Assembly: GCA_937944275.1 (NCBI GenBank)
Contig: CALDZH010000122.1
Coordinates: 1 to 40,454, forward strand
Source: an uncultured Woeseiaceae bacterium
GTDB taxonomy: Bacteria > Pseudomonadota > Gammaproteobacteria > Steroidobacterales > Woeseiaceae
Direction: 5' to 3'
DNA: 40,454 bases
Position numbers and translations under genes: made by a program. The notes beneath the pieces were generated by a model, which did not search any database, was not told the origin of the DNA, and worked only from the letters and a program-made list of their open reading frames with translations. Positions within the stretch are counted from its first letter, which is position 1; every line of letters begins with the position of its first letter. Positions 8,296 to 39,651 of this stretch are shown in pieces.

Positions 8296-8783
8296 TGGAT
8301 ACACACGACTTCATTGCGCGGTTTGCCGGGATTTACGAGCACTCACCCTGGGTTGCCGAACGTGTGGCGCCGATCGCCGAGCAACTCGATGATACTGCGC
8401 AGCTGGCGGCACTGATGGTGGATTGCGTCGATAATGCTGATACCGAAAAACAGCTCGCGCTGATTCGGGCACACCCGGACCTGGCTGGCAAAGCGCAGTT
8501 GGCTGGCGAACTGACCGCGGACTCCACGGCAGAACAGTCGAGCGCTGGCCTCGATCAGTGTTCCAAGGTCGAGTATGAACGCTTCCAGGCGCTCAATGAG
8601 GCCTACAAGGAAAAATTCGGTTTCCCGTTTGTTATGGCAGTGCGGGGCAGCAGCAGGGCCGAAATCCTCGATGCGTTCAGCGCCCGCCTGCAAAACGACT
8701 ACGACCTCGAGTTTGAAACGGCACTCGCTGAGATACACCAGATTGCGCGGTTGCGTCTTGCTGCGATGGAGAGCGACGAATGA
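8295..8783 (+). CDS. uraD: 2-oxo-4-hydroxy-4-carboxy-5-ureidoimidazoline (OHCU) decarboxylase
   Basis: GTG start overlapping the puuE TAG. 'AHPDLAGKAQLAGELTADSTAEQSSAGLDQC' and 'KFGFPFVMAVRG' signatures. Confidence 0.93.
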   Translation: MDTHDFIARFAGIYEHSPWVAERVAPIAEQLDDTAQLAALMVDCVDNADTEKQLALIRAHPDLAGKAQLAGELTADSTAEQSSAGLDQCSKVEYERFQALNEAYKEKFGFPFVMAVRGSSRAEILDAFSARLQNDYDLEFETALAEIHQIARLRLAAMESDE

Positions 8784-9748: not shown

Positions 9749-10247
9749 ACGGGATTCCTTTTCATTACAACCCGAGCCGCTTACGAAAGAGCGATTCGCG
9801 TTGTATGGAGATGTGATCGAGGCATCGCTAGAGAACCCCGACGCGATGAACGAAGCGCGTTTCCAGCGCTTCAATGATCTTTGCGACATCGATGTGAGTG
9901 ACGGCGATGTTGCGGTCAGCGTCGCGCGTTGTCGCGCACCAACGAAGTTGCCCTTGCGTATTGACATGGTCGAACGTCACCCGCTAGGTAGCCAGGCATT
10001 TGTGCCTCTGAAGCCCTGTCGCATGGTTATCGTTGTTGCGCCGCCGGGTGAAGCTGTCGAGGCTTCTGAACTGCGGGCATTCGTTACCAATGGCAAACAG
10101 GGCATTAACTATCATAAAGGTACGTGGCACATGCCGCTGATCGCTTTTGATGCTGGGCAGGAATTCCTGATTGTCGACCGTGGTGGCAGCGAGTCCAACT
10201 GCGAGACGCACATGCTTGATGATGTCGTCATGCTGGAGGCTGTGTAG
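9741..10247 (+). CDS. allA: Ureidoglycolate lyase
   Basis: LTKERFALYGDVIE, MVERHPLGSQAFVPL and YHKGTWHMPLIAFD motifs. Begins within the alc 3' end. Confidence 0.9.
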   Translation: MAERDSFSLQPEPLTKERFALYGDVIEASLENPDAMNEARFQRFNDLCDIDVSDGDVAVSVARCRAPTKLPLRIDMVERHPLGSQAFVPLKPCRMVIVVAPPGEAVEASELRAFVTNGKQGINYHKGTWHMPLIAFDAGQEFLIVDRGGSESNCETHMLDDVVMLEAV

Positions 10248-11530
10248 TGGAGGCGTTGCGGGCGTCGATCCTGCACTGCCTGGCGGACCCGGGAGAGGGG
10301 TCGAAGCCTTCGGCCTGGGAATACTTCGAAGACGGGCTGCTCGCGGTTCACGATGGCCGCATCGTCGACGCAGGTCCTGCAGACGCGGTGCGGGCGAGGC
10401 TGCCCGCCGATATCGAGGTCACGGACTACGCCGGAAAACTGATTGTTCCCGGGTTCATCGACTGCCATGTGCATTTCCCGCAACTCGACATCATTGGTTC
10501 CTACGGAGCGCAGCTGCTCGACTGGTTGAACCAGTATGCCTACCCGGTAGAGGCGAAATTCGCCGACCCGGACCATGCACGTGAAGTTGCAAACGCGTTC
10601 GTCGATGAATTGTTGCGCAATGGCACGACGACGGCCCTGGTGTTTGGCACTGTGCATGCGCACTCTGCCGATGCGATTTTCGAAGCCGCCGAGGCCCGCA
10701 GCATGCGCCTGATAGCGGGCAAGGTCCTGATGGATAGCAATTGCCCGGAGGAACTCAGGGACTCTCCAGATTCGGGCTATGCGGAAAGCAAAGCCCTGAT
10801 TGAACGTTGGCACGGAAAAGGCAGGCTTGGTTACGCGATTACGCCGCGATTCGCGTTGACTTCATCGCCGGAACAACTCGCGGCCGCCGGCAAGCTTGCG
10901 GACGAATATCCGGATACCTGGATTCATACCCACCTTGCCGAGAACATGGATGAGGTTGAGCAAATTGCCAGGCAGTTCCCCGACAGCCGCAGCTACCTTG
11001 ACGTCTACGAGCAATTTGGGCTGGTGCGCGAGCGTGCCGTATTTGCGCACTGCCTGCACATGAATGACCAGGACAGGGCAAGCATGGCCACAAACCGAGC
11101 CGCCGCAGCGTTCTGTCCCACATCAAATCTATTTCTCGGCAGCGGCCTGTTCGATTTAACGGCCATGCGCGAAGCGGGCGTCTGCTGTGGCCTGGGTACG
11201 GACGTCGGCGGCGGAACCAGTCTGTCCTTGCTGAGGACGGCCAGCGAAGCCTACAAGGTCCTGCATTTGCGGGAGCACGCGTTACCCGCCACGCAAGCAC
11301 TTTACCTCGCTACGCTCGGCGCAGCCGAAGCGCTCCGCCTTGAGGACAAGATCGGCAACTTCGAGGAAGGCAAAGAGGCTGACTTCGCGGTTCTCGATTT
11401 CGAGGGATCGAACCTGACCGCGCGGCGCTGCGCGGCCGCGAGTACGATCGAAGAGAAGCTTTTTGCCCTGATGACGCTTGCCGATGACCGCAATGTTGCG
11501 GCTACCTATGTCGAAGGCCGGCTGGCCTAG
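10247..11530 (+). CDS. guaD: Guanine deaminase (amidohydrolase)
   Basis: PGFIDCHVHFPQLDIIGSYGAQLLDWLNQYAYPVEAKFAD and GLGTDVGGGTSLSLLRT motifs. GTG overlaps the allA stop. Confidence 0.93.
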   Translation: MEALRASILHCLADPGEGSKPSAWEYFEDGLLAVHDGRIVDAGPADAVRARLPADIEVTDYAGKLIVPGFIDCHVHFPQLDIIGSYGAQLLDWLNQYAYPVEAKFADPDHAREVANAFVDELLRNGTTTALVFGTVHAHSADAIFEAAEARSMRLIAGKVLMDSNCPEELRDSPDSGYAESKALIERWHGKGRLGYAITPRFALTSSPEQLAAAGKLADEYPDTWIHTHLAENMDEVEQIARQFPDSRSYLDVYEQFGLVRERAVFAHCLHMNDQDRASMATNRAAAAFCPTSNLFLGSGLFDLTAMREAGVCCGLGTDVGGGTSLSLLRTASEAYKVLHLREHALPATQALYLATLGAAEALRLEDKIGNFEEGKEADFAVLDFEGSNLTARRCAAASTIEEKLFALMTLADDRNVAATYVEGRLA

Positions 11531-12496: not shown

Positions 12497-13629
12497 CGCA
12501 CCAGGATCGCCCGAAAGTCATTGACGTTGGTGCGCGTGGGGCCGGTGACGACCAGGTCGCCGAGACTATCGAAAAACGCGTAGCTGTCATTGTTGGCCTG
12601 CATATCCTGTGCATCCAGCGGCGCGCGCTTCAGCGAATTCGGAAAGACGTAACATCCTGCATTGTCACCAGCCCCGTCGACACCGTCGGTGTCACAGGCG
12701 ATTGCGGATATTCTCTCGTGGCCATCAAGCGCGATCGCAAGCGCGAGGGCGTATTCGCCGTTGCGTCCACCCCTCCCTGATCCCGTTACGGGCACGGTTG
12801 TTTCGCCGCCAGAGAGGATGACGCAGGGCGGCTCGATTGGTCCATTGCCTGCAGCGATGTCAATCGCCAGCCTTGCGTGCTCGTTGGCCAGTTCGCGTGC
12901 ATCACCAGCGAGGTCGCCGAGCATATAGGGGGTGACATCAAGCTCCAGCGCACGCAGGGCCGCAGCCTGAATCGCATCATCACTGGTTGCGAGTATGCGA
13001 ACGTCACTTTCGCGCGCGGCTGCGGCATTGGTGATCGTAGGCCCCGATGCCACGACGGATGGGTCGTTGCCCGGCACGTCCGAGATTATCAGCGTAGTGA
13101 CATGCGCTGGCGAGCAAGCCTCTGCCAATTTGCCGCCTTTGACCGCCGACATTTCCCGCCGTGCCTGGTTGATCTCGTAAATCGGTGCGCCGCTCGCGAG
13201 TAACTCGATGGTCTTCGCTTTTTTTTCGTCGAGAGTGATGCCGGATGCCGGCGAGCACAGGAGTGCAGAGCCGCCTCCCGACAACAGGCAAACCACCGTG
13301 TCATCACCGGATAGATTCGAGACCAGGTCGAGAATGCGCCGCGTTGCGGTTACGCCGCGCTCATCGGGCACCGGGTGGGAGGCTTCGACGACCTCGATAT
13401 GATCGCACTCGGCCGTATGCCCGTCCGGGACGATGACCAGGCCATGGAGCGGTTCCGCCCATTGCTGCTCGATGATTGCTGCCATGCTCGCAGCGGCCTT
13501 GCCGGCGCCGACCACAATGACGTTGCCGGTCGGACGGTCTTCGAGCCAGAGCGGCATGCACGCGGCCGGGCTCGCAGCCGCAACTGCGGCATCGAATAGA
13601 ATGCGCAGAAAAGTCCGGGCGTCGGTCAT
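12493..13629 (-). CDS. Glycerate 2-kinase, DUF4147/MOFRL type
   Basis: VGAGKAAASMAAIIEQ, VEASHPVPDERGVTATRRIL, LLSGGGSALLCSPA, LSGGETTVPVTGSGRGGRNGEYALALAIAL, ACDTDGVDGAGDNAG. Confidence 0.92.
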   Translation of the reverse strand: MTDARTFLRILFDAAVAAASPAACMPLWLEDRPTGNVIVVGAGKAAASMAAIIEQQWAEPLHGLVIVPDGHTAECDHIEVVEASHPVPDERGVTATRRILDLVSNLSGDDTVVCLLSGGGSALLCSPASGITLDEKKAKTIELLASGAPIYEINQARREMSAVKGGKLAEACSPAHVTTLIISDVPGNDPSVVASGPTITNAAAARESDVRILATSDDAIQAAALRALELDVTPYMLGDLAGDARELANEHARLAIDIAAGNGPIEPPCVILSGGETTVPVTGSGRGGRNGEYALALAIALDGHERISAIACDTDGVDGAGDNAGCYVFPNSLKRAPLDAQDMQANNDSYAFFDSLGDLVVTGPTRTNVNDFRAILVR

Positions 13630-14228
13630 CCGACCGGCAGATCTTCTTCCCTGACGTGTGGCTCAAGTCTTTTGAGCAGGTCGGCCATTTCCGGCCTGTT
13701 CTGCCGCAACTCGGCTAAAGAAAACCCGGACATTTCGTAGGGAAGCACGAGCCAGTCTATGGTCTCGCGCACAAAATAGTCGGGCGTGCGCAGGGTTTTC
13801 TCGGTCGGCCTGAACCAGACAGTGCCGATGCGAATGTCATGTGGCAGGTTGCGGCGTGTTTTCTTCGCAAGCTGATTGATCACGGCGCTTACGCTGGAGC
13901 CGGTGCTGTAGACATCGTCGATGATCAACAGGGAGTGGTGTGAGCAAAGGTTCTCAAGCAGGTATTGCAGTCCATGTACGCGGATCGCGTCGGCCTTGTC
14001 GACCATCTGCGAGTAGCTTCGAGCACCGGTGTAGGACGTGCGAATCGCAATGTGATCGGTCTTTATGCCGAAATAGTCCAGGCCCTCCTGAACGGCGATA
14101 CCCACGGAACTGCCACCACGCCACAGGCCGACCAGGAAGTCGGGTTCGAATCCTGCTTCGTAGATATTGGCTGCTAACTGGAATGAATCCCGGAGGAGGT
14201 CGTCTGCGGCAATAAATCGCTCATTCAT
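13626..14228 (-). CDS. Purine-type phosphoribosyltransferase, paralogue A
   Basis: FLVGLWRGGSSVGIAVQEGLDYFGIKTDHIAIRT.. and LLIIDDVYSTGSSVSAVI PRTase motif; 4-bp overlap with the downstream glycerate kinase start. Confidence 0.85.
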   Translation of the reverse strand: MNERFIAADDLLRDSFQLAANIYEAGFEPDFLVGLWRGGSSVGIAVQEGLDYFGIKTDHIAIRTSYTGARSYSQMVDKADAIRVHGLQYLLENLCSHHSLLIIDDVYSTGSSVSAVINQLAKKTRRNLPHDIRIGTVWFRPTEKTLRTPDYFVRETIDWLVLPYEMSGFSLAELRQNRPEMADLLKRLEPHVREEDLPVG

Positions 14229-14313
14229 TGGTGTTATTCCCACGCCGTGCAGGGGTAGAATTGAGGTCAGCCATTATAAGGCCGCGCCCCGGTCCGCACA
14301 CAAGAGAATAACG

Positions 14314-14886
14314 ATGGACAAAACCGTACTTTCCGCCCAGGACCTGCTGGAGGACTCGATCGAGCTCGGAATTAAAGTACTCGAAAGCGGTTTCGAGCCA
14401 ACGATGATCATAGCGATCTGGCGCGGCGGGACCCCCGTCGGGATGGCCTTGCAGGAAACTCTTTCGTACTGCGGGGTTGCGTCTGACCATATTGCGATCC
14501 GCACTTCTTCCTACACGGGCGTTGATCAACGAGGCCACGTTGCTGTGCATGGTCTGAACTACATTATCAAGAAGATTTGTCATGACGACCGCGTACTGAT
14601 TGTCGACGATGTGTTCGATACAGGTAACACTATCAAGGCGGTCATTGATGAGCTGCGCAGACGCGCGCGGGACAACACACCCGAGGATATTCGTGTTGCC
14701 GTACCCTGGTTTAAGCCAAGCCGCAACGAGACGGACCTCTTGCCGGATTTCTTCCTGCGCGAAACGGCAGAATGGCTGGTATTCCCGCACGAACTCGACG
14801 CGCTGACACCGGAAGAGCTTGAGAAACATCGTCCGGAAATTGCCGATATCGTGCACCGCATCAAGTCGCCGGCGCTACCGGTTTGA
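14314..14886 (+). CDS. Purine-type phosphoribosyltransferase, paralogue B
   Basis: MIIAIWRGGTPVGMALQETLSYCGVASDHIAIRTSSYTG and VLIVDDVFDTGNTIKAVIDEL PRPP-binding motif. Confidence 0.88.
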   Translation: MDKTVLSAQDLLEDSIELGIKVLESGFEPTMIIAIWRGGTPVGMALQETLSYCGVASDHIAIRTSSYTGVDQRGHVAVHGLNYIIKKICHDDRVLIVDDVFDTGNTIKAVIDELRRRARDNTPEDIRVAVPWFKPSRNETDLLPDFFLRETAEWLVFPHELDALTPEELEKHRPEIADIVHRIKSPALPV

Positions 14887-26547: not shown

Positions 26548-28833
26548 ATGGTTGAGCAATTCATTCGACTGCTGCTTGCGAGTCGATGGGTTGTGCTTGT
26601 CCTGCTGGTCGCAGTTGTTGTTGTCTCGGCAGCTTCTGTTTCCCGGATCAAATTCGACAACTCGATCGAGGCGTGGTTTCTGGATGAAGACCCCAGTCTT
26701 GCTATCTACGATCATTTCTCCGAGACATTTAACGCGGATCAAATTGTTATCGTAGGCCTGTTTGCGGAGGACGTATTCGACGCCGATGTCCTCGCCGCTA
26801 TCGATCAAATCTCTGTCGCCGTGGCACAGCTCAGGTTCGCTGATCGTGTGCAATCAATTACGCACACTTCTTTAGTGGAGAGAATTGGTGGCTTCGATAC
26901 ACCGAATTTTCGCGAACAGATTCTGGCGAGTCCGTTACAGCGAAGCCTGTTGTTATCCCCTGACAACAATGCGACCGCTATCGTCGTGCACTATGCGCGA
27001 GAGGGCAACACGTTTAGAGAAAAACAGGAATTCGTTAATGCGCTACGCGAAATTGTGGGTACTGCCACGGTGGGCGCAGACATCGACGTCGCGATAAGCG
27101 GTGCGCCGGTCCTGGGTGAGGCCGGCCAGACCCGCAACAATGCGGACCTGCGGATCCTCATTCCAGCGATGATTGCTGTCATCGTCATTATTGCCTTCGG
27201 TCTGTTCCAGAGCGTGGTCATGACTTTGCTGCCGTTGGGTGTCAGTGGTGTTGCAGTGTTGTTCGCATACGGACTAATGGCTGCCGCTGGATGGCGCATG
27301 ACTATGATATCGGTCATCCTCATTCCGCTGATCCTGGCGGTGGGCGTCGCGCATTCCGTGCATGTGATCAACCGGTATCGGCTAAATTTCGAAAATGGGC
27401 TCGACAACGAGGCGGCGGTCGTCGACAGTATCAGAAGACTTGCCAGACCGTGCTTCTTTACCAGCATAACAACCGTTATTGGTTTGCTTTCTTTACTCGT
27501 AAGTGAACTTGAGCCCGTACACGAGTTTGCAGTGACGGCGGCTGCAGGAGTCTTTGCGGCCTTTGTCATCAGCATGACGTTCCTGCCTGTCATGCTGCTC
27601 CTGCGTCGACGCAAACTGCATTACCGGCCTACTATCGCCGGGAGTATCGTGGATAATTTACTGGCCCTGGTTTATCGGGCCTCGTCGGCTCATCCTCGTA
27701 AAATCGTCATACTGTGCCTGCTCGTGGGTGTCGGATTTACATGGCTAGCCGTCCGCGTCGAGACCGGGCTCGATCCAATGTCATGGATTCGTCACGATGA
27801 TCCGATTCGGGTTGATACTCAACGGATCGACAGCGCGTTCGGCGGCGCGTTGTCCCTCGAGTTCCTTCTGACCTCGCAGGACGGTCAACTTGATGAGCCG
27901 GATATTCTGCGCCGCATGGAGGCGTTTCAGGACTGGTTAGTGGCAAACAGCAAGGTTGCGAAAGCAACGTCGGTCGCAGACCTGGTCAAGGAAGCAGCAA
28001 GGGTTGCACGGGGCGCGGGCCAAAGCGGCTTCGACTTACCAAAGACCCGGTTCCTGACGACTGAGTTGCTCGGCAAGTTACGTAGCGACGAGCAGCTGGG
28101 GCCGTGGGTAACGCCAACGTACACAGAAGCCCGCATAGCGGCGCGAGTGCCGCTGTCGTCCGCCCAGGAAATCATTGATGAAATTCCGGCTATAGAACAG
28201 CGTATCGCGCAAAGTTTTGAGGGCTCTGGCGTGACGGTTGCATTGACCGGGCACGCAGTGCTGGCCAGCAAAATGCAGACCCATATGCTCGACAGCCAGC
28301 TGCAAAGTTTTGGCGTGGCGCTGGGTGTGGTCTCACTTGTGATGATCCTGCTCTTGAGGTCTGCGGCACTGGGTCTATTAGCCATGGTTCCAAACCTGCT
28401 GCCAATTGCCATTGGACTGGGCGCGATGACCCTGCTCGATATTCCGCTGAATCCGGCTACTGTCATGATCGCAGCCGTTGCGCTGGGCATTGTGGTTGAT
28501 GACACAGTCCACCTCATGACGGCATTCGAACGAGGCGTGCGCAACGCTGGGAAGGTTGGGGCCGCGATCAAGTCGACTTTGCTTGAGGTCGGTCAGCCGG
28601 TTATGGTAACCAGCGTCCTGCTGGTCGCGGGATTCTCAACACTAATTCTTGGCAGCTTCCTGCCAACCCGACAGGTTGGTGGGCTCGTCGCGCTGATAGT
28701 CGCGGCCGCGCTGGTAACCGACCTTGTTTTTTTGCCGGCGATTCTGCGTGCCCTGCCCGACGAACTGATCACGAAATCACTCGGTCGGGATTCTCATTCG
28801 CCTGGTCAGGACATGTCCGACCTGCCGAAATAA
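26548..28833 (+). CDS. MMPL/RND superfamily transporter (HAE-3-like)
   Basis: 761 aa; two repeats of TM bundles, e.g. VILIPLILAVGVAHSVHVINRY and MIAAVALGIVVDDTVHLMTAFERG. Confidence 0.92.
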   Translation: MVEQFIRLLLASRWVVLVLLVAVVVVSAASVSRIKFDNSIEAWFLDEDPSLAIYDHFSETFNADQIVIVGLFAEDVFDADVLAAIDQISVAVAQLRFADRVQSITHTSLVERIGGFDTPNFREQILASPLQRSLLLSPDNNATAIVVHYAREGNTFREKQEFVNALREIVGTATVGADIDVAISGAPVLGEAGQTRNNADLRILIPAMIAVIVIIAFGLFQSVVMTLLPLGVSGVAVLFAYGLMAAAGWRMTMISVILIPLILAVGVAHSVHVINRYRLNFENGLDNEAAVVDSIRRLARPCFFTSITTVIGLLSLLVSELEPVHEFAVTAAAGVFAAFVISMTFLPVMLLLRRRKLHYRPTIAGSIVDNLLALVYRASSAHPRKIVILCLLVGVGFTWLAVRVETGLDPMSWIRHDDPIRVDTQRIDSAFGGALSLEFLLTSQDGQLDEPDILRRMEAFQDWLVANSKVAKATSVADLVKEAARVARGAGQSGFDLPKTRFLTTELLGKLRSDEQLGPWVTPTYTEARIAARVPLSSAQEIIDEIPAIEQRIAQSFEGSGVTVALTGHAVLASKMQTHMLDSQLQSFGVALGVVSLVMILLLRSAALGLLAMVPNLLPIAIGLGAMTLLDIPLNPATVMIAAVALGIVVDDTVHLMTAFERGVRNAGKVGAAIKSTLLEVGQPVMVTSVLLVAGFSTLILGSFLPTRQVGGLVALIVAAALVTDLVFLPAILRALPDELITKSLGRDSHSPGQDMSDLPK

Positions 28834-30398
28834 TCAGACCAGTCAGTATTCCTGTTGAGAGGTGAAGGCTTGATGTCTCCTAAACGCATTCCCTTATTTA
28901 CAAGCGCACCCGTGTAGACGTCATAGGCGTTTTCGGAAACCCTGTTGACTCGAACTGGCCGAAGTTGGCCGAGTCGGACACACAGGTCATAGTGATGGCT
29001 GCGCCGGAGCTGTTCCTCCAGCACTGCGGCAAACTGTTTCGGAAGCTCATCAGCAGATTCTACATACAACGAATAGCCCGGCGAGGCGTCCGGGTTGTCG
29101 AGGGCAAGCATCGCGAATCGTGGCTTGATTTCAAATCGGGTAAACACAACCTCCAGGCAGTCAGCCACGAACGCCTCATTAAGTTTTTCCCCGCAGTGAT
29201 CCGAGACATTGTCGGCCTTGCCGATGAAGCGCAGGCTCGGTATGCCCTTGTAGAATCCGGTCACCTCGACCTGGTCCCGCAATGCGTAGCGATACAGTCC
29301 TCCACCAGTGGTGACGATCAGTGTGTAGGTGCATTTATTCTTTAGCGACCAGGCCGGGTGAACGCTACCGCCCTCATCCTGGAATTCAAAAAAGTGGCTA
29401 CGAATAGCCAAAGGATGATGTCGCTCAAGGGGGAGTGTTACAAAAGCCTCAGTAGCGACGATACCCTTGGGTTGCAGTTTTACGCCGGGAAACTCTGCGC
29501 GCAGGTCCGGCAAGTAATGCGCGGCGTGGGCATCCCCCCAGCAGCTGATCATCGCAAGGTTCGGCCACAGGGCAGCTGGATTGTCGGGTCCGAGCCGGGC
29601 GAGTTCGCGACTGCGAGGTTCGTCCCTCGCGATGCGTAATGTCGGCGTACTCAGACCCGAGCCCAGGTCATCGAGCAAAATCGACCAGTTGCTCCGCAGG
29701 TAGCGAAGCAGCAAAAGAATAAAAGATGGATGCCAGGCTGACATCAAGCGCAGATCACGGCACTTCAGCAGTGATAACAACGTCAGTCGCCAGAACGTGT
29801 CCATGTCGGTTACACCGCGGAGTTGCGGTGGTGTCGCCAGTGTGAGGTTGACGAGGTGCCGCGCAAACCCTCCGAGATAGGCGCTGTCTTCGTCGAAACC
29901 GATAGGTACGCTGGATTCTTGCGCGCGATTGCGCTGTGCGGGTGGTGTCAGGCTCCAGTATGCGCGGCCGGTCTTGAGGGCGGGTACTTCAAAAAACACG
30001 TTCGATATCCAGACCGCTACGGCACGACTGAATTCTGCCTGCAGCCGGCGCGTGTAGGGAATCCACTTTTCCGCCCCCGAGGAACCGCTCGAAGGTTCAA
30101 GAAGCTTGACGGGTTCTGCAGTCAGAACATTGTGTGCGCCGGAAGCGATCTGGCTGATCCACGGCTCGAAATCCTCATAGGGGCGCACGGGGACCATTTC
30201 CGCAAAATCTTCCCAGCTGCGTATCTCCGAAAAACGATGGTCCTTTCCGAAATCGGTGGCGGCATTGTCGCGGACATAGCGTGATAACAGCTGTCGCTGT
30301 GTTTCCTCGATCTTCGTTGCGGCATGCCTGAAGCGCATCCACTCCGGCAGGCTTGCCGCAAGCCAGAGATTGTTGGCGATGGCGGGCCCGAGCTTCAA
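28806..30398 (-). CDS. GH3-family (auxin-responsive promoter-type) acyl-acid amido synthetase
   Basis: EPSSGSSGAEKWIPYTRRLQAEF ATP-binding motif; VTTGGGLYRYALRDQVEVTGF. Confidence 0.92.
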   Translation of the reverse strand: MKLGPAIANNLWLAASLPEWMRFRHAATKIEETQRQLLSRYVRDNAATDFGKDHRFSEIRSWEDFAEMVPVRPYEDFEPWISQIASGAHNVLTAEPVKLLEPSSGSSGAEKWIPYTRRLQAEFSRAVAVWISNVFFEVPALKTGRAYWSLTPPAQRNRAQESSVPIGFDEDSAYLGGFARHLVNLTLATPPQLRGVTDMDTFWRLTLLSLLKCRDLRLMSAWHPSFILLLLRYLRSNWSILLDDLGSGLSTPTLRIARDEPRSRELARLGPDNPAALWPNLAMISCWGDAHAAHYLPDLRAEFPGVKLQPKGIVATEAFVTLPLERHHPLAIRSHFFEFQDEGGSVHPAWSLKNKCTYTLIVTTGGGLYRYALRDQVEVTGFYKGIPSLRFIGKADNVSDHCGEKLNEAFVADCLEVVFTRFEIKPRFAMLALDNPDASPGYSLYVESADELPKQFAAVLEEQLRRSHHYDLCVRLGQLRPVRVNRVSENAYDVYTGALVNKGMRLGDIKPSPLNRNTDWSDYFGRSDMS

Positions 30399-31123
30399 TC
30401 GTCTGTATCAGGGAACAGCTTGCGTCCCTTCGTCCACATGCGTCGTCCCAGGCGAGTTAACTCGTCTTCGGCAAGAATGGAGAAGCATACGAGCTCGTCG
30501 CCGCGCTCGTGCCCCGGATTACGTTCGGCAAAGTACTTGATATGAGGGTCCGACAGCCGATTCTCAGGGATGCCACGATAGCCGCTTTTAAGAATAGCCG
30601 GAGCGTCGAGGCGCACGACGCCGGTTTCCGGGTTGTAGTTGTTTCCGAATCGCGCGCTTGCCACGGTGTCCATTATCAATTGGATATTGCCTGGAGTGTG
30701 CTTGTCATAGCGCGGGTAGAACGATGCACTATAGACGGGCAGGAATCGATAGGTCCGGTAGCCGGAGACCAGAAGGAACCAGTACAGACGTTCCCTTCGA
30801 TACAGGCGGCGAAGATAGTCGATAGCGCCCATCCAGTAGTAGCTCAGCGCTGAGTCGCTCCAGGTTTCGCTGTCGACCACGGTGTCTCCGGAGTAGACGA
30901 CAGCAATGGTCTGGCCGTCGACCTCGACATCGTAGATGTCCATGCTTGAAAACCCGCACAACACGCCATTTTCATTCTGCAGCAGAAGTACCCAGTTTTT
31001 TCGTTCCAGATCCCGATTAAAGACATCGAATGAAACGCCATCAAACTGCTGGCAAAACAGATCGTACATCGAGACTCGCATCTTTGAGCCTGTTTCTTCG
31101 CGTCTTACGACCTTTCCTTTCAC
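30395..31123 (-). CDS. Hypothetical protein, GNAT-like (low confidence)
   Basis: 242 aa; central 'WVLLLQNENGVLCGFSSMDIYDVEVDGQTIAVVYSGDTVV' has a GNAT-like beta pattern. ATGA overlap with GH3. Confidence 0.6.
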   Translation of the reverse strand: MKGKVVRREETGSKMRVSMYDLFCQQFDGVSFDVFNRDLERKNWVLLLQNENGVLCGFSSMDIYDVEVDGQTIAVVYSGDTVVDSETWSDSALSYYWMGAIDYLRRLYRRERLYWFLLVSGYRTYRFLPVYSASFYPRYDKHTPGNIQLIMDTVASARFGNNYNPETGVVRLDAPAILKSGYRGIPENRLSDPHIKYFAERNPGHERGDELVCFSILAEDELTRLGRRMWTKGRKLFPDTDD

Positions 31124-32238
31124 AGGATAGCGACCTCCGGATGCGGGATACGGTCATCCAGCATGCTTACTGCTTCTGCACCATCTTCCCAAAAGACCAC
31201 ATAGATTACGCTAACGTATTCATGACTGGTAAACCGCTTGCGAATGACATTAGCCAGCGGGTTTCTTGCTGCGAAGGAAATCATGACGTAGTCAAGGTCC
31301 TTCCTCATGGCTTGTTCGCATCCGGCTGCGACAAGAGCGATCAGTGATTCCTCATCGTCCTCGTTTACCGCGACGTGTGACAGAAACGCACTTTCGAGCT
31401 TCGCTCCCGGAAACGGCAGGCGCGGCCGGCCGATGAAAGGAGCGACGATATTGAGCAGCGGCCGGACTCTGCTCAACCTGGTCGAGTAACCACGAATGAC
31501 CGTTTGTTTGAATGCTCTTTGATCCCACAAAGCGAGGCAGCTGCGCACATCATCGCCGTGCCGGCAGAGCAGAAAGTCCTCTGGCGCAAGACCGCGGCAG
31601 CGTGTCGCCGAGCCCAGTACTTCCTCGGTCCAGGCGGGATGAAACTGGTAGCGGGCGCCGCTTTCCGCGAGCTTCGCGGCGATGTTCGTCATCTGCTGCT
31701 TACTCGCACGGGCAACATCGCACGACGCCTGGCGACGGCGGCGCGCGCCGAGCCTCGCTGGAATCGTGAACGTGACCATCGTCTCCAATGGCCGGTATGC
31801 GGGCATGTCACCCAGACCAGCTTCAAGCAGGCGCCGGGCACGGTGGTTATCTTCAATGATCGTCGTCAGGTAAAACGAGACGTCGCCGGCCTCGTGAAAC
31901 TGTCGCATCTTTCGGTACGACCCCAGCAGAAGCTTGCGACGCGCCTTCAGGCCGCCCTGCGCCCGAAGTTCGCCGAAGTAGCCAATGCGTTGCGCCGTGC
32001 CATTGATGTAAGTTTCAAGTTCGAACCGGCCGCCTGACGCGATCAGCTCTCTCGGTTCGCCGCCAAAAGCCAGCATCATCTGGAATTGGTCACCGGAGAT
32101 GCCGGCCGCATGGAATGCGTTGGGCTCTCGCTCGAGGGAGACATGAATATCGCCGGTGAGCGGGTTGTCTCTTAGCAACCTGCGCAACTGTGGTTCAGTG
32201 GCCTCGGTCGCAGCCTCAAATGTCAATTCCGTTGACAT
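31120..32238 (-). CDS. Hypothetical GNAT-like protein
   Basis: ATG rc at 32236-32238; 'FYLTTIIEDNHRARRLLEAGL' resembles a GNAT C-terminal helix. Overlaps the downstream gene by 4 bp. Confidence 0.6.
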   Translation of the reverse strand: MSTELTFEAATEATEPQLRRLLRDNPLTGDIHVSLEREPNAFHAAGISGDQFQMMLAFGGEPRELIASGGRFELETYINGTAQRIGYFGELRAQGGLKARRKLLLGSYRKMRQFHEAGDVSFYLTTIIEDNHRARRLLEAGLGDMPAYRPLETMVTFTIPARLGARRRRQASCDVARASKQQMTNIAAKLAESGARYQFHPAWTEEVLGSATRCRGLAPEDFLLCRHGDDVRSCLALWDQRAFKQTVIRGYSTRLSRVRPLLNIVAPFIGRPRLPFPGAKLESAFLSHVAVNEDDEESLIALVAAGCEQAMRKDLDYVMISFAARNPLANVIRKRFTSHEYVSVIYVVFWEDGAEAVSMLDDRIPHPEVAIL

Positions 32239-32251
32239 GCTCTTGATCTGA

Positions 32252-33619
32252 TTAGCTGAATCCGTGCGCAGGCTCAAGGCGACCGGACCAGCCCTCGTCG
32301 CCGAGCGGCAGGTCGTTTCGTTGTTGAACCTCACGTCGCATCATGAAGTTGATAAGCGGGAACTGTCGCGTCATAAACGCGTTGGAACGGTTAACCGGGT
32401 CGGCGAAGCGCCTCAGGATATTCGGGACCGAGTAAAACTCGGCCCGCGCCTTGATGCAAAGCTCCTGCAGTTCTTCCGGTTCGAGCAGTTGTGGTTTGAA
32501 AGGAATCTTGTTGTACGTGTAGGTCGGATCCAGCCACCAGGAGTCATACAACAGGCGTCCTTCCTCCTTGAGCCGCTGGTACAGCGGTGTGCCTGGGAAT
32601 GGCGTCAGGTGATTGAAGGCAGCCATGTAAAAGCGGTGCTCATTGGCAAATCTCACCGTCTCCTTGAATGTGTCCGCGGTGTCACGGTTGTATCCAAAAA
32701 CAAAGGTTGGATAGAGACGAATTTTGTAGCGACGCAGTTTTTCGAGGGCCACGTCATAGCCGCCACCCATGGTGTTGAATTTCTTGTTCATCATGCGCAG
32801 CGTTTCGCGTTCCAGGCTTTCGAAGCCGATCAGGAGTCCCTGGCAGCCACTGCGAGAGATCAGGTCAAGAAACTCCTCATCATGCGCCGCATTGATGCTG
32901 GCTTGTGAAACCCAGCGAATCTTGAGGCGCGCGAGCTCGCGGTACAGGTCCTTTGCTTCTTCGAAATTCGAGGTGATGTTGTCATCAACAAAAAAGTAGA
33001 AACTGTTGCGTTTTCTCGCCGCCTCAACTTCTTTAAGAATGTGATCGATCGGCCGTCGTGTTTGCGTTGCACCAAAGTAACTTTGTACGGCGCAGAACTC
33101 ACAACGAAAATGACAGCCGCGTCCTGCCTCAATCAGTGTCACGGGGACGTAGCGTTTGCCTTTGAAAATGCTGCGATCAACGCGCGTCAGGTTCAGGTTC
33201 GGTCTGTCTTCCTCCCGATAAAAGGTTTGCAGAGTATCGTGCCGGACATCGTCGATGACATTTCCCCATTGCCCTTCAGCTTCGCCAATGATGACGGCAT
33301 CGGCGTACAGCGAGGCTTCCTCGGGACACAGCGTGGCGTGGAATCCACCCAGCACGACCTTGACGCCTCGTTGCCGGTATTCCGTCGCGATCTGATAAGC
33401 GCGCCTTGCCGTGTACGTTTCGATACTGATCGCGACCAGGTCGGTGGCTTCCTCAAACGGGATGACTTCCAGCCTGTCGTCGTAAAAACGAACGTCTACG
33501 TCGGCGGGCGTTAGCCCGGCAATTGCAGCGGGTGCCAGGGGCTCCATTTGCCAACTGCGTATGTATTTCTGGTCACCTGCCCAGCGCCCAACACAAGGGT
33601 GAATGAGCGTCAGACGCAT
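32252..33619 (-). CDS. B12-binding-type radical SAM protein (rSAM-1)
   Basis: N-terminal Rossmann-like B12-binding-type domain (VVLGGFHATLCPEEA); CxxxCxxC as CHFRCEFC; FFVDDNI. Start chosen at MRLTLIHP. Confidence 0.93.
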   Translation of the reverse strand: MRLTLIHPCVGRWAGDQKYIRSWQMEPLAPAAIAGLTPADVDVRFYDDRLEVIPFEEATDLVAISIETYTARRAYQIATEYRQRGVKVVLGGFHATLCPEEASLYADAVIIGEAEGQWGNVIDDVRHDTLQTFYREEDRPNLNLTRVDRSIFKGKRYVPVTLIEAGRGCHFRCEFCAVQSYFGATQTRRPIDHILKEVEAARKRNSFYFFVDDNITSNFEEAKDLYRELARLKIRWVSQASINAAHDEEFLDLISRSGCQGLLIGFESLERETLRMMNKKFNTMGGGYDVALEKLRRYKIRLYPTFVFGYNRDTADTFKETVRFANEHRFYMAAFNHLTPFPGTPLYQRLKEEGRLLYDSWWLDPTYTYNKIPFKPQLLEPEELQELCIKARAEFYSVPNILRRFADPVNRSNAFMTRQFPLINFMMRREVQQRNDLPLGDEGWSGRLEPAHGFS

Positions 33620-33636
33620 AGCTCTTTGCGGCCCGC

Positions 33637-34995
33637 TCACAATATTTCCTGCCGCCGAAGCGGTGTAGATTCGGACTGCACCATCTGCCAGTCGCAGGTG
33701 TAAAACTTGTCGAGACGCCTGCCGTAGAAGCGATAGCCGAGATTTGCCCCGAGATACAGGGCTTTGGAAATCGGTGTTGAACGCATGCGCCTGGCAATAG
33801 ACGAGTAGCTGTAAACCTGGCGCCAGGCCTTCATGTTGCCTTGCTCCAGTTCCGCAACGCTCATGTTGGTGGGCTGAAAGACGACATGCTGGCCATCATA
33901 GAGCTCCCAGTTTTTCGTCAGGATCCGGTTCTCCTTTTCGAGGCGCTCGTGCAGGCCGGTACCCGGGAATGGCGTCAATATCGCGAAACGGGGCAGGTCG
34001 ATACGCGTATCGATGACGAACTGCGCGGTTTCCGCGAAGACATCGGTCGTATCACTATCGAGCCCGAATACGAAAGTGCCGTTCAGCGCTATGCCGTGAT
34101 CGTGGAAGCGGCGAATCCATTCTGCGTAGAGTTCGGGCGAGTTAAAACCTTTGCTGACGTCCTTGAGCGCTGCAGGCGAGATGGACTCGAAGCCGACAAG
34201 CAATGCCATGCAGCCACTGCGCGCGCACAGGTCGAGTAGCTCTTCATCGCGTGCAAGCAGGCTGGTGGCAAGGCCTCCCCACTGGATGCGCAGCGGCATC
34301 AACGCGGTAAATAGCTCCGCGGCGTACTCTTTGTCTGCGATCAGGTTGAGGTCGATGAAAATCGCGCGCCTGGCGCCTGTGGAGCGAATTTCGTCAATGA
34401 CCTCTGCAACCGGTTTTTGGTAAGGCTTGCGGCCCCAGGCAAACGGCACCACGCAGAAATCGCAGCGATGGTTGCAGCCGCGCGTTGCTTCGAAGACGCC
34501 TGTCTTTACATGCTTGCCGCCCGGGATCAGGTCCCGGCGCGCGCGCGGGCGATTGGCAAGGCTGAGATCCGGCGCCTGTGTGTAGCGCTCCCGCATTTGG
34601 CCGGCCACAAAATCACGCAACAGTTCCGGCCACGTGTCTTCCGCGTAACCCACTACAAGAGTGTCCGCATGTGCGGCCGCATCGTCGGGTACAAGCGTTA
34701 TGTGGGGACCGCCCATGACGACCGCAATGCCGCGATCGCGAAAATGTCGCGCAAGTTCGTAAGAGCGCTTGGCAGTGCCTGTAATGACAGTGATGCCGAT
34801 GAGGTCGACATCGAGATCCTCGGGAATATCCTCGATGCCTTCGTCGAACAATGAGAGGTCGTGTTCGATTTCGTCCGGAATCAGGGCCGCAAGCGTCGGG
34901 AGCGTCAATGGCGCGTAGCGCAGTGACTTGCGAAAGATGCCGCCGCGGTGACGATACAATGGTCCCTTTGGCGACAGGAGAGCAATTCTAAGCAT
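33637..34995 (-). CDS. B12-binding-type radical SAM protein (rSAM-2)
   Basis: VVMGGPHITLVPDDA; CNHRCDFC; IFIDLNL. Confidence 0.93.
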   Translation of the reverse strand: MLRIALLSPKGPLYRHRGGIFRKSLRYAPLTLPTLAALIPDEIEHDLSLFDEGIEDIPEDLDVDLIGITVITGTAKRSYELARHFRDRGIAVVMGGPHITLVPDDAAAHADTLVVGYAEDTWPELLRDFVAGQMRERYTQAPDLSLANRPRARRDLIPGGKHVKTGVFEATRGCNHRCDFCVVPFAWGRKPYQKPVAEVIDEIRSTGARRAIFIDLNLIADKEYAAELFTALMPLRIQWGGLATSLLARDEELLDLCARSGCMALLVGFESISPAALKDVSKGFNSPELYAEWIRRFHDHGIALNGTFVFGLDSDTTDVFAETAQFVIDTRIDLPRFAILTPFPGTGLHERLEKENRILTKNWELYDGQHVVFQPTNMSVAELEQGNMKAWRQVYSYSSIARRMRSTPISKALYLGANLGYRFYGRRLDKFYTCDWQMVQSESTPLRRQEIL

Positions 34996-35105
34996 TGCGT
35001 TACTCCGCGGACTGGCCCGGATTGATACCTGCTATGATCAGGCTGTCGAAACGGTATGGCTGATCGCAGGACCTCCAGCTTACCACGGGCTATTTGGCGA
35101 CCAGA

Positions 35106-36446
35106 ATGAAAATAACATTCATCCGCCCGAACATGTATGACGATCGCTCTTCGGATGCGATGGAGCCACTGTGTTTCGCGATCCTCAAATCGCTTACGCC
35201 GGCGGATATCGAGGTATCCTTATATGACGAACGGCTTGAGGAGATTCCGCTCGACCTTGATTCCGATCTCGTCGCGATGACCGTCGAGACCTACACGGCC
35301 AGGCGCGCTTACCAGATAGCCGACCATTATCGGCGGCGCGGAATGCCTGTCGTGATGGGCGGGTACCACCCGACTTTTCTGCCCGACGAAGCATCGGAAC
35401 ATGCTGATGCCGTCGTCAAAGGGGATGCGGAAGGTGTCTGGGAGCGAGTGGTTGAGGACGCTCGCGCGGATTCGTTGCGGCCCGTGTACGAAAGCGCCGA
35501 GTTTCCTTCCCTGGATAACTGCATGCCGGATCGCAGCATATTTGCAGGCAAGAACTATGGACCTATGGGGTTGGTGCAGTTCAGTCGCGGCTGCAGGTTC
35601 AATTGCTCATTTTGCTCGATTCGGGCGTTTTACAAGAACAGCCTCAGGCAACGACCCGTGGAAGACGTCGTCGAGGATATTCGGCGATCAGGGCGCCGGC
35701 ACATTTTTCTCGTCGACGACAATCTGTTTGTGGATGTCGAGACGACCCGGGCTCTTTTTGAGGCGTTGGTGCCGCTGAACATCAGCTGGTCGTGCCAGGT
35801 ATCGATCGATATTGCGAGAGACGCCGATCTTGTACGCCTGATGCGTCGTAGCGGGTGCATCAGCGCGTTGATTGGATTTGAATCGCTCGACATCGACAGC
35901 CTTAGAGAGCTCAAGAAACACTGGAATACCAAGTGGCAATCCTACGATGATGCGATCAGGGTTTTCAGGGATGCAGGCATCATGTTGTATGGCACGTTTG
36001 TGTTTGGCTGCGATAATGACACGGTCAGTTCCTTCGACAAATCGGTGGAATTCGCGCTCCGTAACAAGTTTCTGCTGGCGAATTTCAATCCACTGACGCC
36101 TACGCCTGGCGCACCGCTGTTCGAGCAGATGAAAAAGGAAGGACGGCTTCTGCATGAACGCTGGTGGCTGGACCCGGACTTCGGGTACGGCGATGCGACC
36201 TTCGAGCCACGTGGGATGTCGGCGAGGGAGCTGACAAGCGGATGCTTCTCTTCGAGAAAGAAATTCAATACCGCACATTCGATCATGCGTCGCATGCTTG
36301 ATGTACGGGCAAACCTGCGCACGCCTTACCGGGCCGGCATTTACCTCGTGGCAAATCTACTGTCACGCCGTGAGATACATCGCAAGCAAGGACGCAGGCT
36401 GGGCTCGACCGATTACCAGCCAACACAGCCGGAATTGCGCCCATGA
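35106..36446 (+). CDS. B12-binding-type radical SAM protein (rSAM-3; alternative TTG 35094)
   Basis: VVMGGYHPTFLPDEA; CRFNCSFC; FLVDDNL. Confidence 0.93.
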   Translation: MKITFIRPNMYDDRSSDAMEPLCFAILKSLTPADIEVSLYDERLEEIPLDLDSDLVAMTVETYTARRAYQIADHYRRRGMPVVMGGYHPTFLPDEASEHADAVVKGDAEGVWERVVEDARADSLRPVYESAEFPSLDNCMPDRSIFAGKNYGPMGLVQFSRGCRFNCSFCSIRAFYKNSLRQRPVEDVVEDIRRSGRRHIFLVDDNLFVDVETTRALFEALVPLNISWSCQVSIDIARDADLVRLMRRSGCISALIGFESLDIDSLRELKKHWNTKWQSYDDAIRVFRDAGIMLYGTFVFGCDNDTVSSFDKSVEFALRNKFLLANFNPLTPTPGAPLFEQMKKEGRLLHERWWLDPDFGYGDATFEPRGMSARELTSGCFSSRKKFNTAHSIMRRMLDVRANLRTPYRAGIYLVANLLSRREIHRKQGRRLGSTDYQPTQPELRP

Positions 36447-37822
36447 AGGTGACGTTTCTCCGTCCGAACATCGGCAGGTTGGAAAACGGCCCGTATATCG
36501 ACGAAGGCCGAATGGAACCGTTGACGCTTGGTGTTCTCGCTGCCTATACGCCGCGTGACGTCGAATGTGTGCTCTACGACGATCGCATGGAACACATCCC
36601 GTTCGACGAGCCTACCGACCTGGCGGCGATTTCGGTGGAGATTTACAACGCTCGCCGCGCGTATGAGATTGCAGCCGAATACCGTAAACGTGGCGTACCC
36701 GTTGTCATGGGCGGGTTTCAGCCAACTCTCGTACCGGACGAATGCCTGCAGCACGCCGATACCATCGTTACAGGGGATGCAGAAATTGTCTGGCCGCAAG
36801 TCGTCAACGATGCGCGCAACGGTAACCTGAAACGCAGGTACGCAGGGTCAACAGATTATCCGCAGCCTCGCGGCGTTCTGACCAGGCGGGATCTGTTTGC
36901 AGGCAAGGGGTACCTGCCAATCAGCCTCATCCAGTACGGTCGCGGATGCCGCTTTGCCTGCGATTTCTGCGTCATCTCGACGTATTTCAATCGCAAACAA
37001 TGCGTGCGGCCAATTCAGGACGTTGTTGCCGAGATCGAGGACCAGGACAGGAAGTTTGTTTTCTTTGTGGACGACAACCTGGTGTCGAGCCACGAGTCGG
37101 CAAAAGAGCTGCTTCGTGCGCTGATCCCGCTGAAGGTCCGCTGGGTTTCACAGGGCTCCATCGACATGACGGAGGACCCCGAACTGATGGAACTCATCGA
37201 GGCCAGCGGCTGCCAGGGGTTTGTCATCGGCTTCGAGTCCGTGCTGCCGAGTAGTGTTCGTGGTATGCGCAAGGCCTGCAACCTGAGCAAGAAGTTCGAC
37301 GGGTGGGATCGGTACGCGCGGCAGGTGGAAGTACTGCGTGAACACCATTTACAGACGTGGGCCGCATTTACGCTCGGGCATGACACCGACACAGTCGAGT
37401 CAGTTGCGGAGACGCTGCAATTCGCTGAGGAGCACAAGTTCTGCTTCGCGGCATTCAATATTCTCATGCCGTATCCGAGTACGCCCCTGTACGCACAACT
37501 TGAGTCTGAAGGGCGGTTACTGTGGGGCGGCAAGTGGTGGCTGCACCCAGAGTATCGCTTCAATCATGCGGCGTTCATACCGAAGAACATGACGCCTGAA
37601 GAGTTGACCGAAGCGGTCTTTAAGTGCCGCGTGCGCTGGAATTCAGTGCCGTCTATATTGACGCGTGTTTGGGATTTTCAAACGCACATGAGTTCTCCGT
37701 ACAGGCTGGGCACGTATTTCGTCTACAACAAGTTATTTGCCAGTGAGGCCATGACGAAGCACGGCATGTATTTTGGCAAGCACGAGGACAGCATCACGAT
37801 GGTTGATCATGGCGCGCGTTGA
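36443..37822 (+). CDS. B12-binding-type radical SAM protein (rSAM-4)
   Basis: VVMGGFQPTLVPDEC; CRFACDFC; FFVDDNL. ATGA overlap with rSAM-3. Confidence 0.93.
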   Translation: MKVTFLRPNIGRLENGPYIDEGRMEPLTLGVLAAYTPRDVECVLYDDRMEHIPFDEPTDLAAISVEIYNARRAYEIAAEYRKRGVPVVMGGFQPTLVPDECLQHADTIVTGDAEIVWPQVVNDARNGNLKRRYAGSTDYPQPRGVLTRRDLFAGKGYLPISLIQYGRGCRFACDFCVISTYFNRKQCVRPIQDVVAEIEDQDRKFVFFVDDNLVSSHESAKELLRALIPLKVRWVSQGSIDMTEDPELMELIEASGCQGFVIGFESVLPSSVRGMRKACNLSKKFDGWDRYARQVEVLREHHLQTWAAFTLGHDTDTVESVAETLQFAEEHKFCFAAFNILMPYPSTPLYAQLESEGRLLWGGKWWLHPEYRFNHAAFIPKNMTPEELTEAVFKCRVRWNSVPSILTRVWDFQTHMSSPYRLGTYFVYNKLFASEAMTKHGMYFGKHEDSITMVDHGAR

Positions 37823-38543
37823 AAACTCGCATACAAAGGCGTTGCAGTATTTCTACAACGTCTACCAGTTCATAGCACCACTGGCGTTCTTTCCGATTGC
37901 CTACTGGCTCTGGTGGCGCCGCTTCGGGCGCAATCATGAGCTTGCGTTGCTCGTTATGTTCGTACCGGTTGTGTCGTATTACCTGTTCGTTGGGATCGGC
38001 ATGTTCAAGTACAGACTATGGCGGTTTAACACATCGCCTACGATAGCCGGCATGCGGCCTCACCACGGTTTTGTATTTTCGACAGCGGCAGCCCTGTTTT
38101 TCTATATCTGCCTGCGCATGGTGCCCGTCGATCATGTCGGCATAGGCAGCGTTGCGACGTCTGCTTTTCTGGGCGCATCCGTTTTCGGTTTCTGGAACTG
38201 GTGGTACGAGACGTATGCGATCAAGTCAGGCTTCATATCAATCTATACGAAGAAGGTCGCGGACGGTGCAACGGCCGAGGAAGCGGTTACCGACTACGCA
38301 CCGTTTTTTTTTGGTGGCATGGGCGCGTGTTATGGCGCATTCGTCAAAACGGCCGAGAACCTGTTGCTGACCGAGCATGAACCGACGCTCTATTGGGCCG
38401 TAGCGGTCGGGGGCGGCTTGTCCATGATCGTCGTACCTGTTGCCCTTTACCTGGTGGCGCATCGATACAGGCACGGCGAGTCGGGCTTAAAGTCTTACGT
38501 CGATGTCATAGAAAAGAGCAAGTCCCGACCCGGCGATGGCTAG
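37809..38543 (+). CDS. Polytopic membrane protein of unknown function
   Basis: ATG 37809 overlaps the rSAM-4 stop. Several TM helices (FIAPLAFFPIAYWLWW, LVMFVPVVSYYLFVGIGMF, VFSTAAALFFYICLRM, LSMIVVPVALYLVAH). Confidence 0.8.
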   Translation: MARVENSHTKALQYFYNVYQFIAPLAFFPIAYWLWWRRFGRNHELALLVMFVPVVSYYLFVGIGMFKYRLWRFNTSPTIAGMRPHHGFVFSTAAALFFYICLRMVPVDHVGIGSVATSAFLGASVFGFWNWWYETYAIKSGFISIYTKKVADGATAEEAVTDYAPFFFGGMGACYGAFVKTAENLLLTEHEPTLYWAVAVGGGLSMIVVPVALYLVAHRYRHGESGLKSYVDVIEKSKSRPGDG

Positions 38544-38781
38544 TCGTGATAACTCAGGTTTGACCGGGCAGGCGTTGTCCGAGGAATTCTTAACCAGGCG
38601 GTGCGAAATTCTGGGGCCGTACCAGTACGCTGCCTGTGAAATTCGCCGTCTTTCAAAAAATACTGCATGAGTACATCTTATCGACGTATCAGAAGATGGG
38701 AGAACCAAATTCACGTGGATTGCGGTCAAGCACGGTAGGCAGTGGGAAGTAATTTCTCAATCATTTTCGAGAGTCGAGTAG
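38536..38781 (+). pseudogene. Small ORF interrupted by an in-frame TGA (38668-38670)
   Basis: MASRDNSGLTGQALSEEFLTRRCEILGPYQYAACEIRRLSKNTA*VHLIDVSEDGRTKFTWIAVKHGRQWEVISQSFSRVE*. The start overlaps the preceding stop by 8 bp, and both sides of the TGA read protein-like in one frame. Confidence 0.45.
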
Positions 38782-38804
38782 AATGATCGTCGAGGCTTTT
38801 TTTT
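38760..38804 (+). terminator. Possible weak intrinsic terminator
   Basis: ATCATT...AATGAT arms (38760-38765/38782-38787) with inner TCGA/TCGA, then T8 at 38797-38804. The 9-nt gap between stem and T-run is non-canonical. Confidence 0.25.
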
Positions 38805-38832
38805 AGTAGCGACAAGTCGAGCGGTAAGAACT

Positions 38833-39651
38833 ATGCCAAACACGATTTTCGATTCCGAGAAAGCGGGTGAATATTACGACGATGCGAACGTGTCGACGTT
38901 TTACCAGCAATGCTGGGGCGGCGAAGATATACACATTGGTCTTTACTCTACCGGCAAGGAGACGGTTGCGGATGCGTCTGCAGCCATGACCCGGCATCTA
39001 CTCGAACGCGCTGGAATCGTTGCTGGTCTTAAGGTGCTCGATATAGCTTGCGGATTCGGGGGGACGCTGCGAACGCTTGCACGGTTGGGCTGCCGGGTAA
39101 AGGGTATCGACATCTCAGAGAAGTGCGTCGATCATGCTGGCAAAGGTAACGCAAGAGCAGGACTCACTGATCGTATCGAGGTTAAGGTCGGAGACTTCCA
39201 TAGCATCGATAGTGCGCCTGGTGCGTGGGATGCTGTTATCTGCCAAGAGGCGATTATCCATTCTCCCAATCGTCCAAGGGTGTTTGCCGAAGTTCACAGG
39301 ATTCTGCGTCCGGATGGAGTGTTTGCTTTTTCCGATATCCTCACGGGCCAAGAAGCGGATATCTCAAAGGTGGAGGCGGCCTTTGCCCGATTGGGAGCGA
39401 GCGCAGACGCGACGATTAGTAGTTATCTGAAAATGGCCGAGGAAGCTGGCCTTGAAATCCTGCACGTTGAAGAACGACTGAGCGACATCAAGACCCATTA
39501 CGATAAGTTGGCGGATCACCTTGCGAAGCCAGACAGCGGCCTTGACCCCGAAGCTGTAGCATCGATTTCGAGAAGCATCTCTTACTGGCAAAGTGCTTTG
39601 TCAAACGGTGATATAACTTGGGCTTGCTTTGTTGCGCGTAAGCCGGTCTGA
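38833..39651 (+). CDS. SAM-dependent methyltransferase, sarcosine/dimethylglycine N-methyltransferase-like
   Basis: YYDDANVSTFYQQCWGGEDIHIGLYSTG N-terminal motif and KVLDIACGFGGTLRTLA motif I. Confidence 0.85.
   Translation: MPNTIFDSEKAGEYYDDANVSTFYQQCWGGEDIHIGLYSTGKETVADASAAMTRHLLERAGIVAGLKVLDIACGFGGTLRTLARLGCRVKGIDISEKCVDHAGKGNARAGLTDRIEVKVGDFHSIDSAPGAWDAVICQEAIIHSPNRPRVFAEVHRILRPDGVFAFSDILTGQEADISKVEAAFARLGASADATISSYLKMAEEAGLEILHVEERLSDIKTHYDKLADHLAKPDSGLDPEAVASISRSISYWQSALSNGDITWACFVARKPV

Follow-up and report, generated by a model that had tools for sequence, protein, structure and literature searches.

A GH3 amido synthetase, two GNAT-fold proteins and B12-type radical SAM enzymes share a conserved bacterial gene cluster with a putative acyl-amide product

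Results

Bacteria of about ten phyla carry a gene cluster that joins a GH3 amido synthetase to two GNAT-fold proteins (GNATa and GNATb) and B12-type radical SAM enzymes. In the window, by which we mean the whole stretch of 40,454 nucleotides analyzed here (contig CALDZH010000122.1, our C122, from an uncultured Woeseiaceae bacterium whose genome assembly, GCA_937944275.1, is 2.04 Mb and 63% complete), the GH3 gene, the two GNAT-fold genes and four B12-type radical SAM genes (rS1 to rS4) form two divergent operons between positions 28806 and 37822. The existence, composition and breadth of the cluster are well supported. The main search used an rS2 alignment alone as the query against 84,980 species genomes, and the best 80 loci were examined; since rS2 was the sole query, the remaining genes serve as an independent test of co-conservation. 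Loss of association between the radical SAM, GH3 and GNAT genes had been named beforehand as the outcome that would refute the system. The association held: rS1, GNATa, GNATb and GH3 were all present in 28 of the 30 rS2 loci flanked on each side by 9 kb or more, giving five core genes.

Organization of the locus

The features of the window that concern the cluster are as follows.

26548-28833, plus: MMPL/HAE3-type RND transporter gene, a probable exporter (Pfam MMPL, 1.6e-36)
28806-30398, minus: GH3 amido synthetase gene, last of the minus arm
30395-31123, minus: GNATb
31120-32238, minus: GNATa, starting at the ATG at 32238 and not at 32334; 372 amino acids
32252-33640, minus: rS2, second gene of the minus arm
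33637-34995, minus: rS1, first gene of the minus arm in reading order
34996-35105: intergenic gap between the divergent arms; both promoters are presumed to lie here, by position only
35106-36446, plus: rS3, with an alternative TTG start at 35094
36443-37822, plus: rS4
37809-38543, plus: MEM, an accessory membrane protein gene
38536-38782 (approximate), plus: interrupted short reading frames, no supported gene
38833-39651, plus: SDMT-like methyltransferase gene, 289 bp past MEM

Overlaps of 4 bp occur at four junctions (three in the minus arm, plus rS3/rS4), rS2 and GNATa are separated by 13 bp, rS4 and MEM overlap by 14 bp, and the MMPL/RND gene overlaps the 3' end of the GH3 gene by 28 bp. 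The initial annotation, made from sequence alone, had described a bidirectional cluster with overlaps or very short gaps, and this held, as did its large reading frames, which are all open and in the order given. It had also named four radical SAM paralogues, a GH3 amido synthetase and two GNAT-like proteins; these identities held too, on the evidence given below for each family. No sigma-70-like promoter site above chance was found in 34996-35105, and control by a cobalamin riboswitch was rejected, there being no Rfam match in the window or in four related loci.

Both boundaries of the proposed cluster required revision. On the left, the cluster should be extended to the MMPL/RND gene, which adjoins GH3 in the close relatives L032 to L035 and, in L038 and L080, precedes rS3-rS4-rS1-rS2-GNATa-GNATb-GH3 on the strand that they share; by this co-conservation it belongs to the cluster in the lineage of the window. 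On the right, MEM, a hydrophobic and probably multi-pass protein without a Pfam match, has homologues adjoining radical SAM genes in eight other loci (L035, L036, L046, L047, L107, L108, L122 and L127) and is thus part of the cluster in some lineages. The two features beyond it had been counted as cluster parts, and this was not upheld for either. The SDMT-like methyltransferase scored 141.9 bits against the SDMT model NF041675 (cut-off 550) and was found beside no other cluster copy among the loci compared, so we dropped it as a member of the system; it is likely a mere neighbor. The small interrupted reading frame has stops in all frames and was dropped as a gene. One frame of 38536-38782 gave a very weak SnoaL-profile score (2.7 bits, under the inclusion threshold), leaving a decayed SnoaL-like accessory remnant as no more than a possibility.

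Spread, core genes and accessories

The closest copies of the cluster lie in Woeseiaceae/Chromatiales metagenome-assembled genomes (MAGs), with an rS2 identity of 89%. Among the best 80 rS2 loci, those that have the complete set of five core genes span about ten phyla, including Pseudomonadota, Verrucomicrobiota, Planctomycetota, Chloroflexota, Acidobacteriota, Gemmatimonadota, Deinococcota, Campylobacterota and Vulcanimicrobiota; Marinimicrobia and Thermodesulfobacteriota are less certain hosts because many of the genomes are MAGs. Cultured strains carry the cluster as well, among them Chthoniobacter flavus Ellin428. Other queries bear on the same association. GH3, searched within the same order, matched in 42 of 296 genomes (the window's own included), and most order-level GH3s at 33% identity or above belong to a GH3-GNATa-GNATb cluster, which in many cases also has rS1 to rS4. 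In a sample of 398 other Pseudomonadota genomes, only 5 had a GNATb match, which shows that the spread is patchy; GH3 adjoins GNATb in all five and rS1 plus rS2 accompany them in two, and gene contexts were similar in a class-level sample. The GH3 protein alone, used as the query of a contig search, returned no confirmed relative, whereas the rS2 alignment succeeded.

GH3, GNATa and GNATb constitute the conserved core, which also occurs without rS1 to rS4 in several genomes. Most loci found via rS2 have rS1 and rS2 beside this core (rS1 in 72 of 80; rS2 in all 80 by search design), and rS3 and rS4, found in 28 and 20 loci and together in 20, are a common but optional pair. The proposed set of four radical SAM genes is therefore only partly upheld: rS1 and rS2 belong to the core of rS2-found loci, and rS3 and rS4 are not universal. 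The number of radical SAM genes per cluster ranges from two to five, and the window represents one branch of the family.

Accessory genes (rS3 plus rS4, MEM, desaturase, PAP2, SnoaL-like, Rieske, transporters) come in lineage-specific sets. The recurrent neighbors in the best 80 loci are a fatty-acid desaturase (32), PAP2 (30), SnoaL-like (24) and Rieske (19) proteins; rarer are alpha/beta-hydrolase-like proteins (11, assigned by eye, without a Pfam match), MEM (8), RND (7) and AurF-like proteins (5). In Sulfuricurvum (L127) the genes lie on one strand as FADS-PAP2-SnoaL-GNATb-GH3-rS1-rS2-GNATa-rS3-rS4-MEM, and an Ectothiorhodospiraceae locus (L108) has a contiguous version that also includes AurF, Rieske and hexapeptide genes. 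The interleaved single-strand order GNATb-GH3-rS1-rS2-GNATa-rS3-rS4, with overlaps, is common to these two loci, L122 and a Citrobacter plasmid. Three-gene versions adjoin HlyD- and MFS-type efflux genes (assigned by eye), which supports an exported product. Neither PKS, NRPS, KS or ACP genes (by eye and Pfam) nor a recurring small precursor gene were seen in the loci inspected gene by gene.

Some further arrangements were observed in passing. In rSAM-poor versions, a large protein adjoins the three-gene core (L042:5493-8333, L142:5180-8071, L146:12938-15700); its domains, tested in L042 only, are an NQR2/RnfD-type membrane domain, FG-GAP repeats and ASPIC/UnbV. Where rS1 to rS4 are missing, the core can be accompanied by a P450 and by a longer B12-type radical SAM protein of another kind (L042:16686-18422, L142:12307-14013); the best NCBIfam match of the L042 radical SAM protein is PhpK, at 152 bits. 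Second or partial GNATb-GH3 copies within one locus, in L095 and L089, suggest duplication of the core.

A plasmid-borne copy and horizontal transfer

Citrobacter portucalensis 64A:C, isolated from a gull, carries a complete and contiguous 11-gene version, including a fifth, rS1-like radical SAM gene, on the mobilizable IncFIB/IncFII plasmid NZ_CP134684.1 (L153:11382-23477). Near-identical copies were absent from 5,426 E. coli genomes and from the other PLSDB plasmids, and an rS3 search in phages found no copy. Since phyla are mixed within the radical SAM clades and one copy is plasmid borne, we infer that the cluster has spread horizontally. An alpha-2-macroglobulin gene lies about 7 kb from the cluster on the same plasmid.

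Radical SAM enzymes

Membership of rS1 to rS4 in the B12-binding radical SAM superfamily is shown. All four match Pfam Radical_SAM (E of 1e-10 or better), and the Pfam B12-binding domain scores above its curated cut-off in rS1 to rS3 and below it in rS4, in which this domain has diverged. The CxxxCxxC motif is intact in the four window proteins (CNHRCDFC in rS1, CHFRCEFC in rS2) and in nearly all homologues (rS1, 66/66; rS2, 81/81; rS3, 26/27; rS4, 20/20). Pairwise identity among the four is 34 to 43%, and in a tree of 89 sequences rS1, rS2 and rS4 are each monophyletic with 100% bootstrap (support 100/100, 100/99 and 100/100), and rS3 forms one clade save for a single long divergent sequence (L062). 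The four proteins therefore represent old lineages that have been kept together, and recent tandem duplication as their source is ruled out by these separate deep clades. No named equivalog was reached (HpnJ, BchE, PhpK and others; best scores 73 to 97 bits against cut-offs of 481 to 600), so whether the reaction is methylation or other radical chemistry remains undecided.

GNAT-fold proteins

Neither GNAT-fold protein of the window has a Pfam match of its own. GNAT models match 18 of 46 GNATa and 22 of 46 GNATb homologues (Acetyltransf_9 for GNATb), and the AlphaFold models, with pLDDT values of 95.5 (GNATa) and 95.9 (GNATb), are both GNAT folds; together with the Foldseek matches, this places both proteins in the GNAT superfamily. 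GNATb is single-domain, with Foldseek matches to Eis-like, AAC(2') and NatD proteins at about 1e-5. The GNATa model has two tandem GNAT domains over its full length, in a fold like that of N-myristoyltransferase (NMT): all 50 listed Foldseek matches in the PDB are NMTs (best E, 1.6e-12; about 10% identity; TM about 0.6). A sequence search of the PDB gave no match for GNATa, and the NMT Pfam model matched none of 46 GNATa homologues; because no NMT profile matched, we do not claim membership in the NMT family.

An atypical GNAT, NMT has two GNAT domains side by side and uses its C-terminal carboxylate as the catalytic base (PMC7048800). In GNATa, 46 of 46 aligned homologues end at one column, and 60 of 63 homologues have a C-terminal leucine; the ends of GNATb and GH3 vary. 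From the predicted fold and this conserved C terminus we infer, by analogy, that GNATa may transfer acyl groups from thioesters to amines with base catalysis like that of NMT. Human NMT1 truncated by two residues showed no drop in kcat, a side-chain carboxylate having taken over (PMC7048800), and the conservation of the GNATa terminus is therefore suggestive, not proof.

GH3 enzyme

The N, middle and C domains of the GH3 family are all recognized in the window protein (PF03321, 9.9e-47; GH3_M, PF23571, 4.9e-14; GH3_C, PF23572, 1.3e-10), as are the nucleotide-binding motifs I (SSGSSGAEK, from residue 103) and III (GLYRYALRD, from residue 367), and its profile matches solved plant GH3 structures, at best with 2.5e-36. 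Given the intact motifs and the match to solved plant enzymes, ATP-dependent adenylation and amide formation are likely, the activity being inferred in the absence of enzyme data. The cluster GH3s group in a clade of their own, separate from the other bacterial GH3s. OlsH, a GH3-like enzyme of Singulisphaera acidiphila, uses ornithine and fatty acids to form N-acyl-ornithine (PMC12493201). The window GH3 scored 40.3 bits against the OlsH model NF052613 (cut-off 620) and a Chromatiales homologue 48.6, and assignment as an OlsH-type lyso-ornithine lipid synthetase was dropped.

Discussion

We favor, by a modest margin, the view that the product of the cluster is a modified fatty-acyl amide whose synthesis involves neither PKS nor NRPS; this product is inferred, and no enzyme has been tested. 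In this view, GH3 would adenylate a carboxylic acid and join it to an amine that is probably an amino acid. GNATa would take a long acyl chain off a thioester and place it on an amine, its own C-terminal carboxylate serving as the base, and GNATb would attach another acyl group. Unactivated carbons may then be altered by the B12-type radical SAM enzymes, through methylation or C-C bond chemistry, and MMPL/RND or other membrane proteins would carry the product out of the cytoplasm. An acyl-amide or lipid-like product made without PKS or NRPS had already been proposed in the initial annotation. The NMT-like fold of GNATa lends further weight to the inference, as do the recurring desaturase, PAP2 and MMPL neighbors and the lack of PKS, NRPS and ACP genes in the loci inspected; the lipid-like nature of the product is inferred from neighbors only.

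Several points weigh against this model. Some version of the pathway can do without the radical SAM genes, as the core occurs in their absence; support for an NMT-like GNATa comes from a predicted fold, with low identity; and the radical SAM scores to named families are far under their cut-offs, leaving the reaction type undecided. A bolder reading, which we can neither favor nor dismiss, is that of an unrecognized class of natural-product or lipid pathway, carried by horizontal transfer into about ten phyla, in which GH3 and a bacterial NMT-like acyltransferase relying on C-terminal-carboxylate catalysis would build an amide scaffold and two to five cobalamin radical SAM enzymes would turn it into a new chemotype.

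The strongest rival, against which we lean, has the cluster make a structural aminolipid, akin to ornithine lipids or ceramide phosphates, that is kept in the envelope, PAP2 and MMPL acting in the membrane or periplasm. The GH3 enzyme OlsH does yield a lyso-ornithine lipid (PMC12493201), and desaturase, PAP2_3, membrane-anchored SnoaL-like and MMPL neighbors would suit such a product. However, the patchy spread (5/398), plasmid carriage and the efflux neighbors of three-gene versions better fit an exported specialized metabolite, and the OlsH model reaches only 40 of the required 620 bits.

It is unlikely that two modules, one making a GH3/GNAT acyl-amide and one of radical SAM enzymes acting on another substrate, travel together by chance. 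The three-gene core without rS1 to rS4 in several genomes and the divergent two-arm layout of the window speak for it, but the genes interleave on one strand with overlaps in many loci (among them L108, L122, L127 and the Citrobacter plasmid), and the rSAM-free versions with a different B12-type radical SAM protein and a P450 suggest swapped tailoring of one scaffold. Modification of a macromolecule, in which the NMT-like protein would have a protein or peptide as its acyl acceptor, with GH3 and the radical SAM enzymes modifying that target or a tRNA, draws on the NMT fold being best known for protein N-acylation and on some B12-type radical SAM enzymes acting on peptides, but is very unlikely, as GH3 enzymes form amides of small acids, the loci inspected showed no small precursor gene that recurs and lipid-type neighbors are frequent.

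Returning to the acyl-amide model, the nearest described pathway is OlsH/OlsI, in which a bacterial GH3 likewise makes an N-acyl amide independently of PKS and NRPS. There, however, an alpha/beta hydrolase, OlsI, is the partner; in the present cluster the partners are two GNAT-fold proteins and B12-type radical SAM enzymes, and the window GH3 falls in another clade. Plant GH3s (JAR1, GH3.12) belong to the same family and have recognizable motifs I and III, but their partner genes differ and motif I is one residue shorter in the cluster clade than in JAR1. GNATa resembles eukaryotic NMT in that two fused GNAT domains span the whole protein and a conserved C-terminal residue stands at a fixed column; it differs in being bacterial and part of a biosynthetic cluster, with about 10% identity and no NMT Pfam match. 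HpnJ, BchE, PhpK, HpnR and the ladderane-associated TIGR04072 have the same B12-binding plus Radical_SAM layout, some with DUF4070, but rS1 to rS4 score about 38 to 97 bits against cut-offs of 360 to 650 and form their own lineages. Anammox ladderane candidate clusters (PMC2649909) are also lipid-linked, with B12-type radical SAM action proposed; those are described as groups of fatty-acid biosynthesis genes, whereas here the core is GH3/GNAT and no KS or ACP was seen.

GH3 enzymes occur widely in bacteria, their functions beyond OlsH are still to be elucidated (PMC12493201), and the cluster links one GH3 clade to fixed partners, namely a bacterial protein with an NMT-like predicted fold and B12-type radical enzymes. 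No paper on this gene combination or on a bacterial NMT-like enzyme was found in the open-access full-text literature searched; the cluster thus appears to be undescribed, provisionally, as this rests on that search without MIBiG or antiSMASH comparison. We would expect PKS/NRPS-keyed genome mining to overlook it, an expectation without an antiSMASH result behind it; the initial annotation had suggested that rules keyed to PKS, NRPS or RiPP cores might miss or mislabel the locus. The plasmid-borne Citrobacter copy and that of the cultured C. flavus Ellin428 make the product findable.

Elsewhere in the window, an apparent purine-degradation set occupies positions 1436-11530 (xanthine-dehydrogenase-like, allantoicase-like and aminohydrolase-like reading frames, by eye), and two phosphoribosyltransferase-like reading frames (13626-14243, minus; 14167-14886, plus; by eye) lie on opposite strands with overlapping 5' ends.
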